Origin: a virus
Length of the DNA: 64,000 bases
Strand: one strand, 5' to 3'
IMG/VR virus record: IMGVR_UViG_3300027779_003171
Location: 1-64,000 of that record
Shown: positions 38,319 to 63,378 of the stretch, piece by piece
Layout: every line of letters begins with the position of its first letter
How positions within the stretch are numbered: the stretch's first letter is position 1
The notes under the pieces: generated by a model
What the model was told of the DNA's origin: nothing
Database searches by the model: none
The model's input: only the letters and a program-made list of their open reading frames with translations
Translations under genes and position numbers: made by a program

Positions 38319-38392
38319 GCGGGTGTCGTATAATGGTATTACTCCAGCCTTCCAAGCTGATAACGCGAGTTCGATTCTCGCCACCCGCTCCA
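38319..38392 (+). tRNA. tRNA-Gly (anticodon TCC)
   Basis: Acceptor GCGGGTG pairs with CACCCGC. The anticodon stem CCAGC/GCTGA has loop CTTCCAA. The T arm GCGAG-TTCGATT-CTCGC is clear, and CCA is encoded. Confidence 0.95.
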
Positions 38393-38395
38393 GTC

Positions 38396-38472
38396 GCTCT
38401 TGTAGCTCAATTGGATAGAGCATCGGTTTTCTAAACCGAGGGTTCTGGGTTCGAGTCCCAGCGGGAGTACCA
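38396..38472 (+). tRNA. tRNA-Arg (anticodon TCT)
   Basis: Acceptor GCTCTTG pairs with CGGGAGT with G-T wobbles. The anticodon stem TCGGT/ACCGA has loop TTTCTAA. T arm CTGGG-TTCGAGT-CCCAG; CCA is encoded. Three bases separate it from tRNA-Gly. Confidence 0.95.
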
Positions 38473-38485
38473 CCTTGGGAAAGAT

Positions 38486-38728
38486 ATGAGTGAAAGAACT
38501 AAAAAATACTTTGAGACGGGAAAGGGGAAGAAAGCTTTGAATAAAGCGAGGAAGGCATACGACCAAAGAGACCCCGAGAAAAGAAGGAAACAAAAGAGGG
38601 ACTACATGCGTCGGAAAAGGGCAGAAGACCCTGATGCTTGGAAATATAAAAATTTACAACCATCCGTTGTGAAACAAGAGAAAAAAACAGACCAAAATGA
38701 AAAACAAAAATACAAGCGAAAGCTGTGA
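38486..38728 (+). CDS. Small very basic protein, unknown
   Basis: 80 residues, rich in Lys and Arg (KAYDQRDPEKRRKQKRDYMRRKRAED). It resembles the basic KAYxxxxPEKRR arrays found before HNH nuclease domains, and may be a nucleic-acid-binding remnant or stand-alone binder. Overlaps the next gene by 32 bases. Confidence 0.55.
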   Translation: MSERTKKYFETGKGKKALNKARKAYDQRDPEKRRKQKRDYMRRKRAEDPDAWKYKNLQPSVVKQEKKTDQNEKQKYKRKL

Positions 38729-39020
38729 TACCCAAACGGAGACTTGCAGCACGACAAAAGAAAATAGATTAACAACGGTTAAGACTGTTTATGCTAGGGC
38801 TGCTGTAGTTCTGCTGGCTCTCAACTTCGGCCTTACTGGTTACGTGGTTTACAATATGAACCAAAACACACAGGCTCAAATTGATGGTCTTACAGAGGGT
38901 GCGTCCATGAGGGGGGCGACGACTCCGGGAACGACCACGACGGATCAAACCCCCCAAACCGCTGGCACTCAAACAGAGCAGGGAACAACACCTTCTCCTG
39001 TCACCACGAGAGACCAATAG
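38697..39020 (+). CDS. Single-pass membrane protein with Thr-rich tail
   Basis: 107 residues. Hydrophilic N-terminus, one membrane segment (AAVVLLALNFGLTGYVVY), then a Thr/Gln/Pro-rich C-terminal tail. No lipobox. It ends one base before tRNA-Val. Function unknown. Confidence 0.6.
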   Translation: MKNKNTSESCDTQTETCSTTKENRLTTVKTVYARAAVVLLALNFGLTGYVVYNMNQNTQAQIDGLTEGASMRGATTPGTTTTDQTPQTAGTQTEQGTTPSPVTTRDQ

Positions 39021-39021
39021 A

Positions 39022-39096
39022 GCGAGCATAGCTCAGTGGAAGAGCAACTGGTTTACACCCAGTAGGTCGTAGGTTCGAATCCTTCTGCTCGTACCA
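39022..39096 (+). tRNA. tRNA-Val (anticodon TAC)
   Basis: Acceptor GCGAGCA/TGCTCGT, anticodon stem ACTGG/CCAGT with loop TTTACAC, T arm with TTCGAAT, encoded CCA. Confidence 0.95.
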
Positions 39097-39120
39097 CCTC
39101 TATTTTGGTGTAATAACAAC

Positions 39121-39142
39121 ACGCCCTTTGGTGGGCGTTTTT
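39121..39142 (+). terminator. Intrinsic terminator after tRNA-Val
   Basis: ACGCCC (39121-39126) pairs with GGGCGT (39133-39138), followed by a T run to 39142. It stands just before the next ATG at 39146. Confidence 0.7.
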
Positions 39143-39145
39143 ATT

Positions 39146-39412
39146 ATGAAAACCAAAAAAACAAGGAAAAAAGGTAAAAAGAGCTCAAAACTTTCTTTTT
39201 TAAGGAAGTCTTGGGACAAACTAAAACATGGTGGAGAGTCTCTTTTGGGCTGGCTAGAGTGGCATACACGTCTAGTGGGAGCATTAGGACTTATTGTTGC
39301 TGGTTGGGTGCTATTATGCCCAGCGGTTTCTCTTGAAGCTACTCTGGCTTGGGGGGCAATTGTTGTTGGTGGGTATCACCTACTAATGGAGCTGAAAGAC
39401 AGGCTCCTATAA
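39146..39412 (+). CDS. Small membrane protein with basic N-terminus
   Basis: 88 residues from ATG 39146, the first start after the terminator hairpin. Lys/Arg-rich N-terminus, then two hydrophobic segments (LVGALGLIVAGWVLLCPAV; ATLAWGAIVVGGYHLLMEL). Holin-like topology is possible, but no family is recognised. Confidence 0.6.
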   Translation: MKTKKTRKKGKKSSKLSFLRKSWDKLKHGGESLLGWLEWHTRLVGALGLIVAGWVLLCPAVSLEATLAWGAIVVGGYHLLMELKDRLL

Positions 39413-39439
39413 GCCGCAAGACACCAATTATTAAACTTA

Positions 39440-39467
39440 AGCCCTACTTCGGTGGGGCTTTTTTTTT
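39440..39467 (+). terminator. Intrinsic terminator with TTCG tetraloop
   Basis: AGCCCTAC (39440-39447), loop TTCG, GTGGGGCT (8-bp stem with one T-G pair), followed by a nine-T run. Ends the small membrane gene; the next promoter overlaps its T run. Confidence 0.9.
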
Positions 39468-39493
39468 GACTCAGAATAAGGTTATGGTAAAAT
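39466..39493 (+). promoter_or_regulatory. Promoter for tRNA-Thr/Ala/Leu
   Basis: TTGACT (39466-39471), 16-base spacer with TAAGGTT, TAAAAT (39488-39493), eight bases to tRNA-Thr. AAGGTT again lies four bases before the -10. Confidence 0.75.
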
Positions 39494-39501
39494 ATCTTGA
39501 G

Positions 39502-39577
39502 GCTTGAGTAGCTTTAATGGTAGAGCACGGGTCTTGTAAACCTGAGGTTATCGGTTCGAGTCCGGTCTCAAGCTCCA
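39502..39577 (+). tRNA. tRNA-Thr (anticodon TGT)
   Basis: Acceptor GCTTGAG/CTCAAGC, anticodon loop CTTGTAA in stem CGGGT/ACCTG, T arm with TTCGAGT, encoded CCA. Confidence 0.95.
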
Positions 39578-39578
39578 C

Positions 39579-39654
<76 letters not shown>

Positions 39655-39660
39655 AATTTT

Positions 39661-39747
39661 GGCGAAGTGGTGGAATTGGTATACACAACAGACTTAAAAT
39701 CTGTCGGCGGTATCGCTATGCGGGTTCGAGTCCCGCCTTCGCTACCA
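39661..39747 (+). tRNA. tRNA-Leu (anticodon TAA)
   Basis: Acceptor GGCGAAG/CTTCGCT, anticodon stem CAGAC/CTGTC-type with loop TTAAAAT, a long variable arm (CGGCGGTATCGCTATG) as expected for Leu, T arm CGGG-TTCGAGT-CCCG, encoded CCA. Confidence 0.93.
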
Positions 39748-60884: not shown

Positions 60885-60912
60885 TTGACAGAAAGCAAGC
60901 TTCTGCTATACT
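60885..60912 (+). promoter_or_regulatory. Strong sigma70-type promoter of the RNA upstream of the TnpB-like gene
   Basis: TTGACA (60885-60890), 16-base spacer, TATACT (60907-60912). It starts four bases after the previous stop codon. It has no AAGGTT element. Confidence 0.85.
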
Positions 60913-60918
60913 GTTTCT

Positions 60919-61081
60919 AGTTCCGAGAGGAGCTCTACCGTCGGTTGGACGGAAAGTTACGACTGTCAGATACGATAATTAGATTTTTAAATAGCTCGCC
61001 TACTTAAAGGTCGTCCATCGGGGCAGTAAAATCCTCTAGGGGGTGGGAGTGAATTAATCCTCCCTCCCGCCCCCGCTTTTT
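60919..61081 (+). ncRNA. Small RNA between a promoter and a terminator, 5' of the TnpB-like gene
   Basis: About 160 bases with no credible reading frame, from the predicted start (~60919) to an intrinsic terminator. CCGTC-GGTTG-GACGG (60938-60952) forms a hairpin, and TGGACG near 60946 can pair with CGTCCA near 61013, suggesting a pseudoknot or alternative fold. An A/T-rich middle separates the two. Position next to an intact TnpB-like nuclease makes it a candidate guide RNA; it could also be a regulator of that gene. Canonical TnpB RNAs lie at the 3' end of tnpB, so this arrangement is unusual. Confidence 0.6.
61039..61081 (+). terminator. Intrinsic terminator of the small RNA
   Basis: GGGGGTGGGAG (61039-61049) pairs with CTCCCGCCCCC (61064-61074), 11 base pairs including one T-G, followed by GC and five T. 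Confidence 0.88.
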
Positions 61082-61122
61082 AAAAGGATTCCGACGCAAG
61101 CATGAAATGAATAGCGGATTTT

Positions 61123-62604
61123 ATGAAAAAAGAAGCAACCCCAAACATTATCTTCGCCGTAAAGTATCGTATTAACGCGAACAAAAGCGGCACTCACTTC
61201 CTCAACAAAAGCTTTGCAGCTTCTCGCAAATACTGGAACTGGCAGGTGGCGAGGCAAATGGAAAACTGGAACACCAGAAACGAACGAACTGAGGAATGGA
61301 AAAAGTCTGGGGGTGAAAAATACCTTCAAGACCTCAAGGACAAAATGAAAAAAGACCTTGCTGACGGGGTATACGAAGAGAAGTCAGACGAGCACAAGGC
61401 AATCCAGAAAGAAATTAGATGTTCTGGATTCCCATTACTGGACGTTGCCCAAGCCGATAAAGATTTTCGGAAGATGAGAAGTGGTGACGACGAAGAGTAT
61501 AACTGGATTGGGGAAACCCCAAGTCGCCTCATTGGTGGTCAGTACAAGAGAATGGCGGTTGCCTTTAGGGAAGGATTCAAGAAGAGAAAAGTCAAGGGCT
61601 TTTGGAAAAGCAAAAAAGATTTTGCGAAAAAACCAAACAAAGGATTCCCCCGTTTCAGAAGTTACGTAGACAACCAATATTTCGATTGTGAAGCAAATCA
61701 AATGAAGTGGGATTGGGAAACCAATCGCCTCAAGTTACCATTGTGTGACACTTGGATTAAGTTCAAGCAGCATATTGACATGAAGGGACTTCTTGAAGAG
61801 TACCCGAACGCCAAGCTTGGTACGTGCGTATTCACTCGCACCCCCACTAATAAGCTCTATGTGTTTATTCCAGTGGACACTGGCGTACCCATGCCCGAGA
61901 AAAAAGAATACGATGAGTCCAATACCGTTGGGATCGATGTCGGAATTAGGAATTACATAACGCTTTCGGATGAGTCGAAAATTGAAAACTCTACTTTTTT
62001 AGAAAAGTTTGGGCTTGATTTCTCAGACGAGAAACTATCCCCGTACAAAACTGACCCGAAGTTGACGCGCCAAAAAAAGATAAGGCAACGACGGCTTGGT
62101 AGGAAAAAGTTTAAGAGTAAGAATTATGCCAAGCAAAAAACAGCTTGCGCGAAGGTTGACGAGAAAATCAAAAACAAGCGAGACGACTTTACCCATGAAC
62201 TGAGTAGGTCTTTGGCCAATATGCCGTTCGACGCTTTTGGTGTCGAAGACTTAGACATCAACCAAATGAAAGCGAAGAAGGCTCCCGTAAAGGGGAAGAA
62301 AAAGGGGTCATACGAGCGTAACGGGCAAGCCCAAAAACGTAATTTAAATCGACGAATAAATGACGTTGCTTGGGGTAGTTTCTTTACCAAATTTAAATAC
62401 AAGCTGGATCACTGTGGTAAGAGTATGATTAGAATTGACCAGTATGAGCCTAGTTCCAAAAAGTGCACTTGTGGGTATATCAACCGCGATTTAAAGCTCT
62501 CCCAGAGCTTTTGGGACTGCCCCGATTGTGGGTCGAAAAATGACCGAGATAAGCTTGCAGCGTTCAATATAAAGAACTACGCTCTAGGAGGCTTAAATGA
62601 CTGA
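61123..62604 (+). CDS. tnpB: TnpB/Cas12-like RuvC nuclease
   Basis: 493 residues. The C-terminal half has the split RuvC site: VGIDVGIRNYITLSD (D272), FGVEDLDINQM (E375), and, after a zinc ribbon (C448, C450, C466, C469), NDRDKLAAFNI (D476 in the R-D position). All three acidic residues are present, so it should cut DNA, unlike the nuclease-dead TldR regulators. The N-terminal half has the TnpB WED/REC layout, including the PRFRSY motif and a basic helix. No TnpA gene, IS ends or flanking repeats are seen, so it looks domesticated. It lies 41 bases after the terminator of a separate RNA gene. Confidence 0.88.
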   Translation: MKKEATPNIIFAVKYRINANKSGTHFLNKSFAASRKYWNWQVARQMENWNTRNERTEEWKKSGGEKYLQDLKDKMKKDLADGVYEEKSDEHKAIQKEIRCSGFPLLDVAQADKDFRKMRSGDDEEYNWIGETPSRLIGGQYKRMAVAFREGFKKRKVKGFWKSKKDFAKKPNKGFPRFRSYVDNQYFDCEANQMKWDWETNRLKLPLCDTWIKFKQHIDMKGLLEEYPNAKLGTCVFTRTPTNKLYVFIPVDTGVPMPEKKEYDESNTVGIDVGIRNYITLSDESKIENSTFLEKFGLDFSDEKLSPYKTDPKLTRQKKIRQRRLGRKKFKSKNYAKQKTACAKVDEKIKNKRDDFTHELSRSLANMPFDAFGVEDLDINQMKAKKAPVKGKKKGSYERNGQAQKRNLNRRINDVAWGSFFTKFKYKLDHCGKSMIRIDQYEPSSKKCTCGYINRDLKLSQSFWDCPDCGSKNDRDKLAAFNIKNYALGGLND

Positions 62605-62848
62605 AGAAGAGCGTCAGAGGACCATTTTGGAGCTAGAAAGGGCCACCTGTAGGTTCCCTTCGACAGCAGAAGATTTAGGATTACAACAACTCATGAACGA
62701 GGAGCAAAAAGGATTACAACAACACATGAACGAGCCTAAGTGCGAGTGTTGTGGCGAGTCCCTGATAGAGGGGAGTTGCCCAGACCACGCCACCTATATG
62801 AGAAGTCATCAGGCGGCACTAGACGTGCTTAGAGGACAATACAAATGA
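62597..62848 (+). CDS. Small zinc-binding protein, 83 residues
   Basis: MTEEERQRTILELERATCRF; a duplicated LQQxMNE segment in the middle; CECCGESLIEGSCPDHA with Cys/His suited to zinc. Overlaps the TnpB-like stop by eight bases and the next start by four, so co-translated with both. Confidence 0.58.
   Translation: MTEEERQRTILELERATCRFPSTAEDLGLQQLMNEEQKGLQQHMNEPKCECCGESLIEGSCPDHATYMRSHQAALDVLRGQYK
62678..62734 (+). repeat. 24-base direct repeat within a gene
   Basis: Two copies (62678-62701 and 62711-62734) beginning GGATTACAACAAC, differing at one base and nine bases apart, in the same reading frame. Confidence 0.9.
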
Positions 62849-63378
62849 AAGTATGGGAAATAGGAGTAGGCGAAGGCCACCAAGTCAGGACTGAGGAGTT
62901 CGTAGGCTCGGACGTTGAATGTTATTTATTTGAACCAAACCCGATCTCCTTTGAAGAGGTGAAGGAGAAATTCAAAGACCAAGACAATTTCAAATTATTT
63001 AATTTCGCGCTAGGCAGCGAGAATAAAACGGTAGATTTTTACTTGGCGAAAGGCTCATCTTTTATAGACGGATACGATTGCCCAGAGCTTTGTGGAAACC
63101 CAAATGCCAAATTCGAAAAACAAAAGGTACAAGTTGAATTGAGAGATGTCAGAGACCTTGACGACGGAGACATAAATACATTATACATAGATACAGAGGG
63201 GTCTGAATATGATATAATTAAATCCATGGTTAGTAGACCTGAAAAAATCGTGGTAGAAATGCACAGCTTCGGTGTCGGATATAAAAACCCCTACTATGAC
63301 GAAATAAGCGAATGGATGATGGAAAATAATTATGGCATCGTTAGCAGGGGGGAAGATTATGAATTTGAAAAATTGTAA
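62845..63378 (+). CDS. FkbM-family methyltransferase
   Basis: 177 residues, short for the family. MKVWEIGVGEGHQVRTEEFV is motif I (E-I-G-x-G-E-G), CYLFEPNPISFEEVKEKF the acidic loop, and NTLYIDTEGSEYDIIKSM the diagnostic IDxEGxE motif, fully conserved here. Probably methylates a sugar hydroxyl. Second FkbM gene in the window. Confidence 0.85.
   Translation: MKVWEIGVGEGHQVRTEEFVGSDVECYLFEPNPISFEEVKEKFKDQDNFKLFNFALGSENKTVDFYLAKGSSFIDGYDCPELCGNPNAKFEKQKVQVELRDVRDLDDGDINTLYIDTEGSEYDIIKSMVSRPEKIVVEMHSFGVGYKNPYYDEISEWMMENNYGIVSRGEDYEFEKL

Follow-up and report, generated by a model that had tools for sequence, protein, structure and literature searches.

A transposase-free phage cassette in which an omega-RNA has probably become a separate gene upstream of a catalytically intact TnpB nuclease

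In insertion sequence (IS) elements of the IS200/IS605 type, the DNA of the 3' end normally serves both TnpB and its omega-RNA, an arrangement that ties the guide to the site of insertion. TranC nucleases use a split-RNA mechanism. RNA binding, RNA processing and guided cleavage by TnpB have been established biochemically (PMC8612924, PMC10278001), and in ISDra2 the loop of omega-RNA stem 1 pairs with the bases immediately before the guide. Here we describe a tnpB locus from a virus (IMG/VR record IMGVR_UViG_3300027779_003171, positions 1 to 64,000; this 64-kb stretch, out of a 71-kb viral contig, is called the window) in which positions 60885–62604 contain, in order, a sigma-70-type promoter, an RNA of ∼160 nucleotides and an intact 493-residue TnpB. 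An earlier note, made from the sequence alone, had proposed a phage-domesticated RNA-guided nuclease whose guide locus had been re-organised; RNA homology, recurrence of the 5' arrangement in related phages and covariation all support that proposal. We consider it probable that the locus is a phage cassette, lacking a transposase, in which the omega-RNA has been turned into a separate 5' gene serving an active TnpB.

The sole resemblance of the upstream RNA to an Rfam family was to RF02269 (HPnc0580), at a sub-threshold 26.3 bits (gathering score 37). HPnc0580 reportedly resides in a non-autonomous mini-IS605 element of H. pylori (PMC6531487), and Helicobacter copies of its locus show the ends of that element; a match to an RNA residing inside a mini-IS605 therefore raised the suspicion that the window RNA is an omega-RNA, and no unrelated regulatory family emerged. 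In a Nostocales genome, other cyanobacteria, a Thermus phage and others, the 3' end of tnpB carries the same core (TCTA, a 5-bp hairpin with a GG loop, and AAAGTTACG). A covariance model, R1, built from 11 omega-RNA cores (TnpB 3' ends and mini-IS605 copies, with the window excluded), matched positions 60934–60978 at 30.2 bits with an E-value of 2.2e-6, which is somewhat favourable because the model was built once the window was known and its members were partly picked for resemblance to the core. The next best match reached 13.3 bits; since R1 E-values are rough (the calibration was short), we also give a null, in which 647 kb of other viral DNA scored at most 15.2 bits. R1 recovered held-out TnpB loci at their 3' ends (L203, L196, L181 and, more weakly, L197), and a scan of 63 other TnpB loci gave good matches at the 3' end and none at the 5' end. 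Across 2.9 million viral contigs a 15-base DNA pattern of the core matched 20 stretches, every one of which resembles an omega-RNA if its stem 1 is fully paired; tblastn showed three of them (L220, L229, L232) to be at tnpB 3' ends. By these comparisons, the window RNA is homologous to the omega-RNA scaffolds of TnpB.

Direct DNA and protein searches from the window alone returned no close relative (exact 8-mers missed one that is 80% identical), and ten related-phage contigs were reached via a flanking gene. Two of them encode a TnpB with the RNA 5' of its gene. In IMGVR_UViG_3300045738_001212 (G200) the TnpB is 80% identical to that of the window and the RNA scores 25.0 bits with R1, so that the close relative of the nuclease carries the RNA as well; in IMGVR_UViG_3300031606_000339 (G195) the TnpB is 32% identical and the RNA scores 21.6 bits. 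The other eight records, mostly fragments, contained no TnpB and no convincing RNA; a weak R1 match in one contig (G202, 16.7 bits) falls within a coding region and was taken as chance. The divergent TnpB (422 residues; L278, 1866–3134) and its 5' omega-RNA lie between glycosyltransferase genes, and the position of its guide is predictable.

The three phage loci have a common anatomy: a 5' hairpin is followed by TCTA, stem 1, AAGTTACG or AAGTAACG and stem 2, and a variable arm then separates stem 2 from a long GC hairpin. The strong promoter that had been predicted upstream of the RNA ranks first among nine in the region and has counterparts in both relatives (TTGACA or TTGACT, a spacer of 16–17, and TATACT or TAGACT). 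In all three, the A of AGTTC stands exactly 7 nucleotides after the −10 hexamer, and AGTTC opens a 6-bp hairpin; in the window, the A of AGTTCC at 60919 is the predicted transcription start, and the RNA region extends to about 61076. Covariation, counted by us on three sequences only with helices paired by hand, is present in stem 1 (all five pairs kept between window and G195, with four double changes), in stem 2 (two compensatory double changes relative to G200, GUUGUC/GGCAAC) and in the 5' hairpin (one compensatory pair in G200, AGUUCG/CGAACU; the G195 stem is AGUUCC/GGAACU). The GC hairpin is 89% identical between window and G200, with a change from U.G to U-A.

Conservation between the window and G200 is limited to the promoter, RNA, hairpin, tnpB and the start of a small open reading frame (ORF) that follows. 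Identity is 79% in the scaffold, 89% in the stem-1 domain and 76% in tnpB; the tail of the upstream gene, at 39% identity, is no more alike than unrelated sequences aligned in this way, and the upstream genes differ. The cassette also sits at different positions in the two phages, immediately following an IMP dehydrogenase-like gene in G200 and coming ∼4 kb past such a gene in the window. The sole strongly variable stretch inside the cassette is the leader ahead of tnpB (61077–61122, 28% identical to G200), of which 61082–61122 is where any guide could vary.

Coordinates of the cassette and of other features in the window
Feature	Position	Strand	Remarks
Promoter, sigma-70-type	60885–60912	+	TTGACA-16-TATACT; 11/12 match, extended TG
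5' hairpin	60919–60934	+	AGUUCC-GAGA-GGAGCU
Omega-RNA core	60934–60978	+	UCUA, stem 1 (CCGUC/GACGG) with GGUUG loop, AAAGUUACG, UCAGAUA
Stem 2 around stem-3 arm	60962–61027	+	60962–60967 ACUGUC pairs with 61022–61027 GGCAGU; minimum free energy fold and covariation
11-bp GC hairpin	61039–61074	+	61039–61049 pairs with 61064–61074; occupies the site of stem 4, the IS right-end hairpin
T-run TTTTT, possible terminator	61077–61081	+	3' of GC hairpin after GC; unconserved
tnpB leader	61082–61122	+	Between T-run and tnpB
TnpB, 493 residues	61123–62604	+	RuvC D272/E375/D476, TNB zinc finger, no C-terminal tail
Small CxxC protein, 83 residues	62597–62848	+	8-base overlap with tnpB end; kept with TnpB in G200
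tRNA cluster, six genes	38319–39744		

The nuclease itself is intact, as the earlier note had claimed. It matches the NCBIfam model guided_TnpB (NF040570) at 180.7 bits (E 5e-53; curated cut-off 100 bits) and contains the Pfam domains OrfB_IS605 and Cas12f1-like_TNB. In an alignment of 17 TnpBs the three catalytic acids are invariant, as are the zinc-finger residues C448, C450 and C469, while C466 is nearly so. Comparison with G200 gave nonsynonymous and synonymous values (pN and pS) of 0.11 and 0.76, with synonymous sites saturated, and TnpB is under strong purifying selection; the RNA, being conserved although the synonymous sites of tnpB are saturated, is under purifying selection as well. 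The protein groups with cyanobacterial TnpBs having a common NGQ..K..LN insertion, one of which (L129) bears the same RNA core at its 3' end, and it is distantly similar in sequence to LaTranC (PDB 9jfo, E 3e-12). We infer that TnpB is an active RNA-guided DNA nuclease.

The usual elements of a transposon are missing from this locus, as had been noted before. No tnpA was seen on reading the flanks and their ORFs, and no pair of left and right element ends (LE and RE) was seen in the flanks, where a single hairpin remains; the RE cut-site motif TTCAC/TCAA is absent 3' of that hairpin. No omega-RNA was matched on the 3' side of TnpB, within the sensitivity of two models (R1 and RF02269), and the overlap of the tnpB frame with the next gene leaves no room for one in the usual place. 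The sequence shows a scaffold that no longer overlaps the tnpB 3' end but lies 5' of tnpB with a promoter of its own, and TnpB has lost the C-terminal tail that formerly overlapped the RNA while keeping its catalytic residues.

Probably the cassette derives from an IS200/IS605-type element whose tnpA and ends were lost. TnpB would bind the scaffold and process the RNA out of a transcript running through it (in G200 and G195 this transcript probably continues into tnpB), and would then cleave targets specified by a guide immediately 3' of the scaffold. Since the cassette itself would supply that guide, independently of the DNA on either side, the guide would be fixed, which fits a cassette for homing or competition among related phages, putative roles that the earlier note had suggested.

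By position, the GC hairpin is the counterpart of the hairpin at the right end of elements (stem 4 in ISDra2; PMC10097598). The earlier note had read it as part of a perfect terminator, and that sequence is indeed present in the window (an 11-bp GC stem, GC and TTTTT; a consensus terminator scan missed it because the loop is too long), but the T-run is missing from G200 and G195, both of which keep the hairpin. The hairpin thus looks terminator-like in the window only. Given the missing T-run in both relatives, the RNA and tnpB may be co-transcribed and not form the independent unit that had been proposed, even though the RNA does lie 5' with its own promoter.

The position of the guide can be approached through the pairing between the stem-1 loop and the bases preceding the guide, which covaries in the elements compared here (GGAAC/GTTCAC, GGAAG/CTTCAC, GGACT/AGTCAAC and GGCTG/CAGTA, with L216 as an exception). 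G195 has a good pseudoknot partner for the loop directly after stem 4 (GGUCG with GGAC-A), which places its candidate guide at ATTTAAACGTCACC in the tnpB leader, and G200 has a plausible one (GUU with AAC) in the same place. For the window, the guide could be missing altogether, lie further downstream (CGAC near 61092) or be provided in trans. A reading in which CAGU (61024–61027) is the pseudoknot strand and the guide precedes the hairpin was rejected on the covariation of stem 2, since the stem-1 loop is unchanged while CAGU/CAAC tracks the other stem-2 strand. No target was found for any candidate guide.

The 166-nucleotide stretch including the GC hairpin folds at −57 kcal/mol (z −2.75; the G195 RNA including its hairpin reaches z −4.5), but without that hairpin the z-scores of −0.75 in the window and −0.62 in G200 are not significant. 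The previously described structured RNA of ∼160 bases is therefore real by homology and covariation, on which the case for it rests, and unremarkable in folding energy once the GC hairpin is left out. Several other observations weigh against a 5' omega-RNA gene for an active TnpB. No pseudoknot partner directly follows the window hairpin, the T-run standing there instead, so that the window may encode a defective RNA or one that lacks a guide. The candidate guide of G195 has no second match in related phages. Finally, the 5' examples number three, all on metagenomic contigs of related phages and two of them close, so that at most two are independent.

One alternative is that the hairpin and T-run end the window RNA before any guide, leaving a guide-less or split scaffold, similar to a trans-activating CRISPR RNA (tracrRNA), which serves a CRISPR RNA (crRNA)-like piece made elsewhere or regulates TnpB. 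The T-run behind the 11-bp stem and the want of a pseudoknot partner ahead of it are in keeping with such a form, as are the natural omega-RNA, which joins tracr-like and crRNA-like parts at the stem-4 loop (PMC10097598), and the TldR guide RNA, reported with an expanded stem-loop that is cut by RNase III (PMC13418256). We nonetheless regard such a scaffold as unlikely: both relatives lack the T-run, a search of the rest of the window for a trans crRNA turned up no good pairing to the hairpin arm, and neither repeat searches near the locus nor a tandem-repeat search of the window disclosed CRISPR-like repeats or a repeat-spacer array.

A structured leader might also serve chiefly in autoregulation, as a place in the tnpB mRNA for binding or cutting by TnpB itself, DNA targeting not being its main role. 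TnpB does process its own mRNA, which can inhibit DNA cleavage by TnpB (PMC10278001), and the RNA ends 20–46 bases ahead of tnpB in G200 and the window; yet the RNA has its own promoter and a full scaffold core, and the RuvC domain is intact and under purifying selection, which makes leader control improbable as the chief function. We find it harder still to believe that a separate mini-element (a palindrome-associated transposable element, PATE, such as mini-IS605) landed by chance beside an unrelated tnpB and left this RNA behind. Mini-elements with a promoter-like sequence and an omega-RNA but no tnpB do exist (the Helicobacter copies and L248), but here the RNA has no flanking left or right end, is conserved despite saturated synonymous sites, and is kept with TnpB at different places in two phages and in the same order with a divergent TnpB in a third. 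An RNA-guided repressor like TldR, suggested by a phage-borne TnpB relative without a transposase, is very unlikely: the nuclease domain of TldRs is inactivated (PMC13418256), but the window TnpB has kept each of the three RuvC acids.

With the 5' omega-RNA gene as our preferred reading, we put forward, tentatively, a broader proposal: that these loci form a distinct phage TnpB lineage, with a 5' omega-RNA gene under its own promoter, a new 5' hairpin, an enlarged stem 4 and a fixed guide, passed between related phages in a cassette that lacks a transposase. In the window, the RNA would have acquired a terminator and may be split in the manner of a tracrRNA, as a natural intermediate between omega-RNA and tracrRNA. 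We found no report in the open-access literature of a TnpB omega-RNA moved 5' with its own promoter, which is weak evidence of novelty. With the scaffold in a separate 5' gene, the RNA is no longer bound to the coding sequence, nor the guide to flanking DNA, and the emergence of guide RNAs in type V CRISPR systems requires this step too. Given two close loci (80%) and a divergent one (32%), small constructs allow a direct test of the arrangement.

Some observations concern related RNAs elsewhere. HPnc0580, listed as an H. pylori small RNA, looks like the TnpB omega-RNA of mini-IS605, and its copies (L130–L134), with a promoter-like sequence and both element ends, occur in Helicobacter plasmids, a prophage and as far as H. 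suis. It was not found at the 3' end of one H. pylori phage TnpB examined. A viral contig end (L248, near 153, reverse strand) holds a stand-alone omega-RNA with an adjoining upstream promoter-like sequence and a right-end hairpin. An upstream RNA match at L160, the nearest locus of an initial set, was rejected because it lies inside a capsid gene (L160 resembles an ordinary element with LE and RE hairpins), and matches from a scan of viral contigs with an RF02269-like motif pattern were attributed to chance.

Elsewhere in the window, phage-type replication genes are present (DNA polymerase, DnaB-like helicase and ribonucleotide reductase). The small CxxC protein encoded after TnpB (counterpart in G200: L277, 2896–3138, minus strand) has no Pfam match and a dN/dS (nonsynonymous to synonymous rate) of about 0.29 against G200, and could be a partner or regulator of TnpB. 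Its ORF contains a direct repeat of 25 bases (96%; 62677–62701 and 62710–62734) that is absent from the G200 version. An FkbM-type methyltransferase gene (62845–63378) lies downstream of the cassette.

Among described systems, TranC and Cas12 nucleases, represented by LaTranC, share with the window a distant similarity of the nuclease and a scaffold away from the classic 3' position, but no CRISPR-like array is seen here. TldRs are likewise phage-borne, apart from a transposase and kept under selection; they are nuclease-dead, whereas in the window RuvC is intact and the RNA lies 5'. An RNA upstream of the nuclease gene is also found in IscB with its upstream omega-RNA (HEARO), although both the nuclease family and the RNA are different. 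HPnc0580 of the Helicobacter mini-IS605 resembles the window in having the core transcribed without an adjoining tnpB 3' end and behind a promoter-like sequence; the mini-element has both ends and no tnpB, whereas the window has no ends and tnpB directly downstream. The IS200/IS605 elements of the ISDra2 type have the same presumed TnpB fold, the same catalytic residues and an omega-RNA having the same stem 1 with GG loop, AAAGUUACG, stem 2 and hairpin before the guide position. The window differs from them in lacking tnpA, the element ends and the C-terminal TnpB tail, and in having its RNA 5' of tnpB with its own promoter and not overlapping the 3' end.
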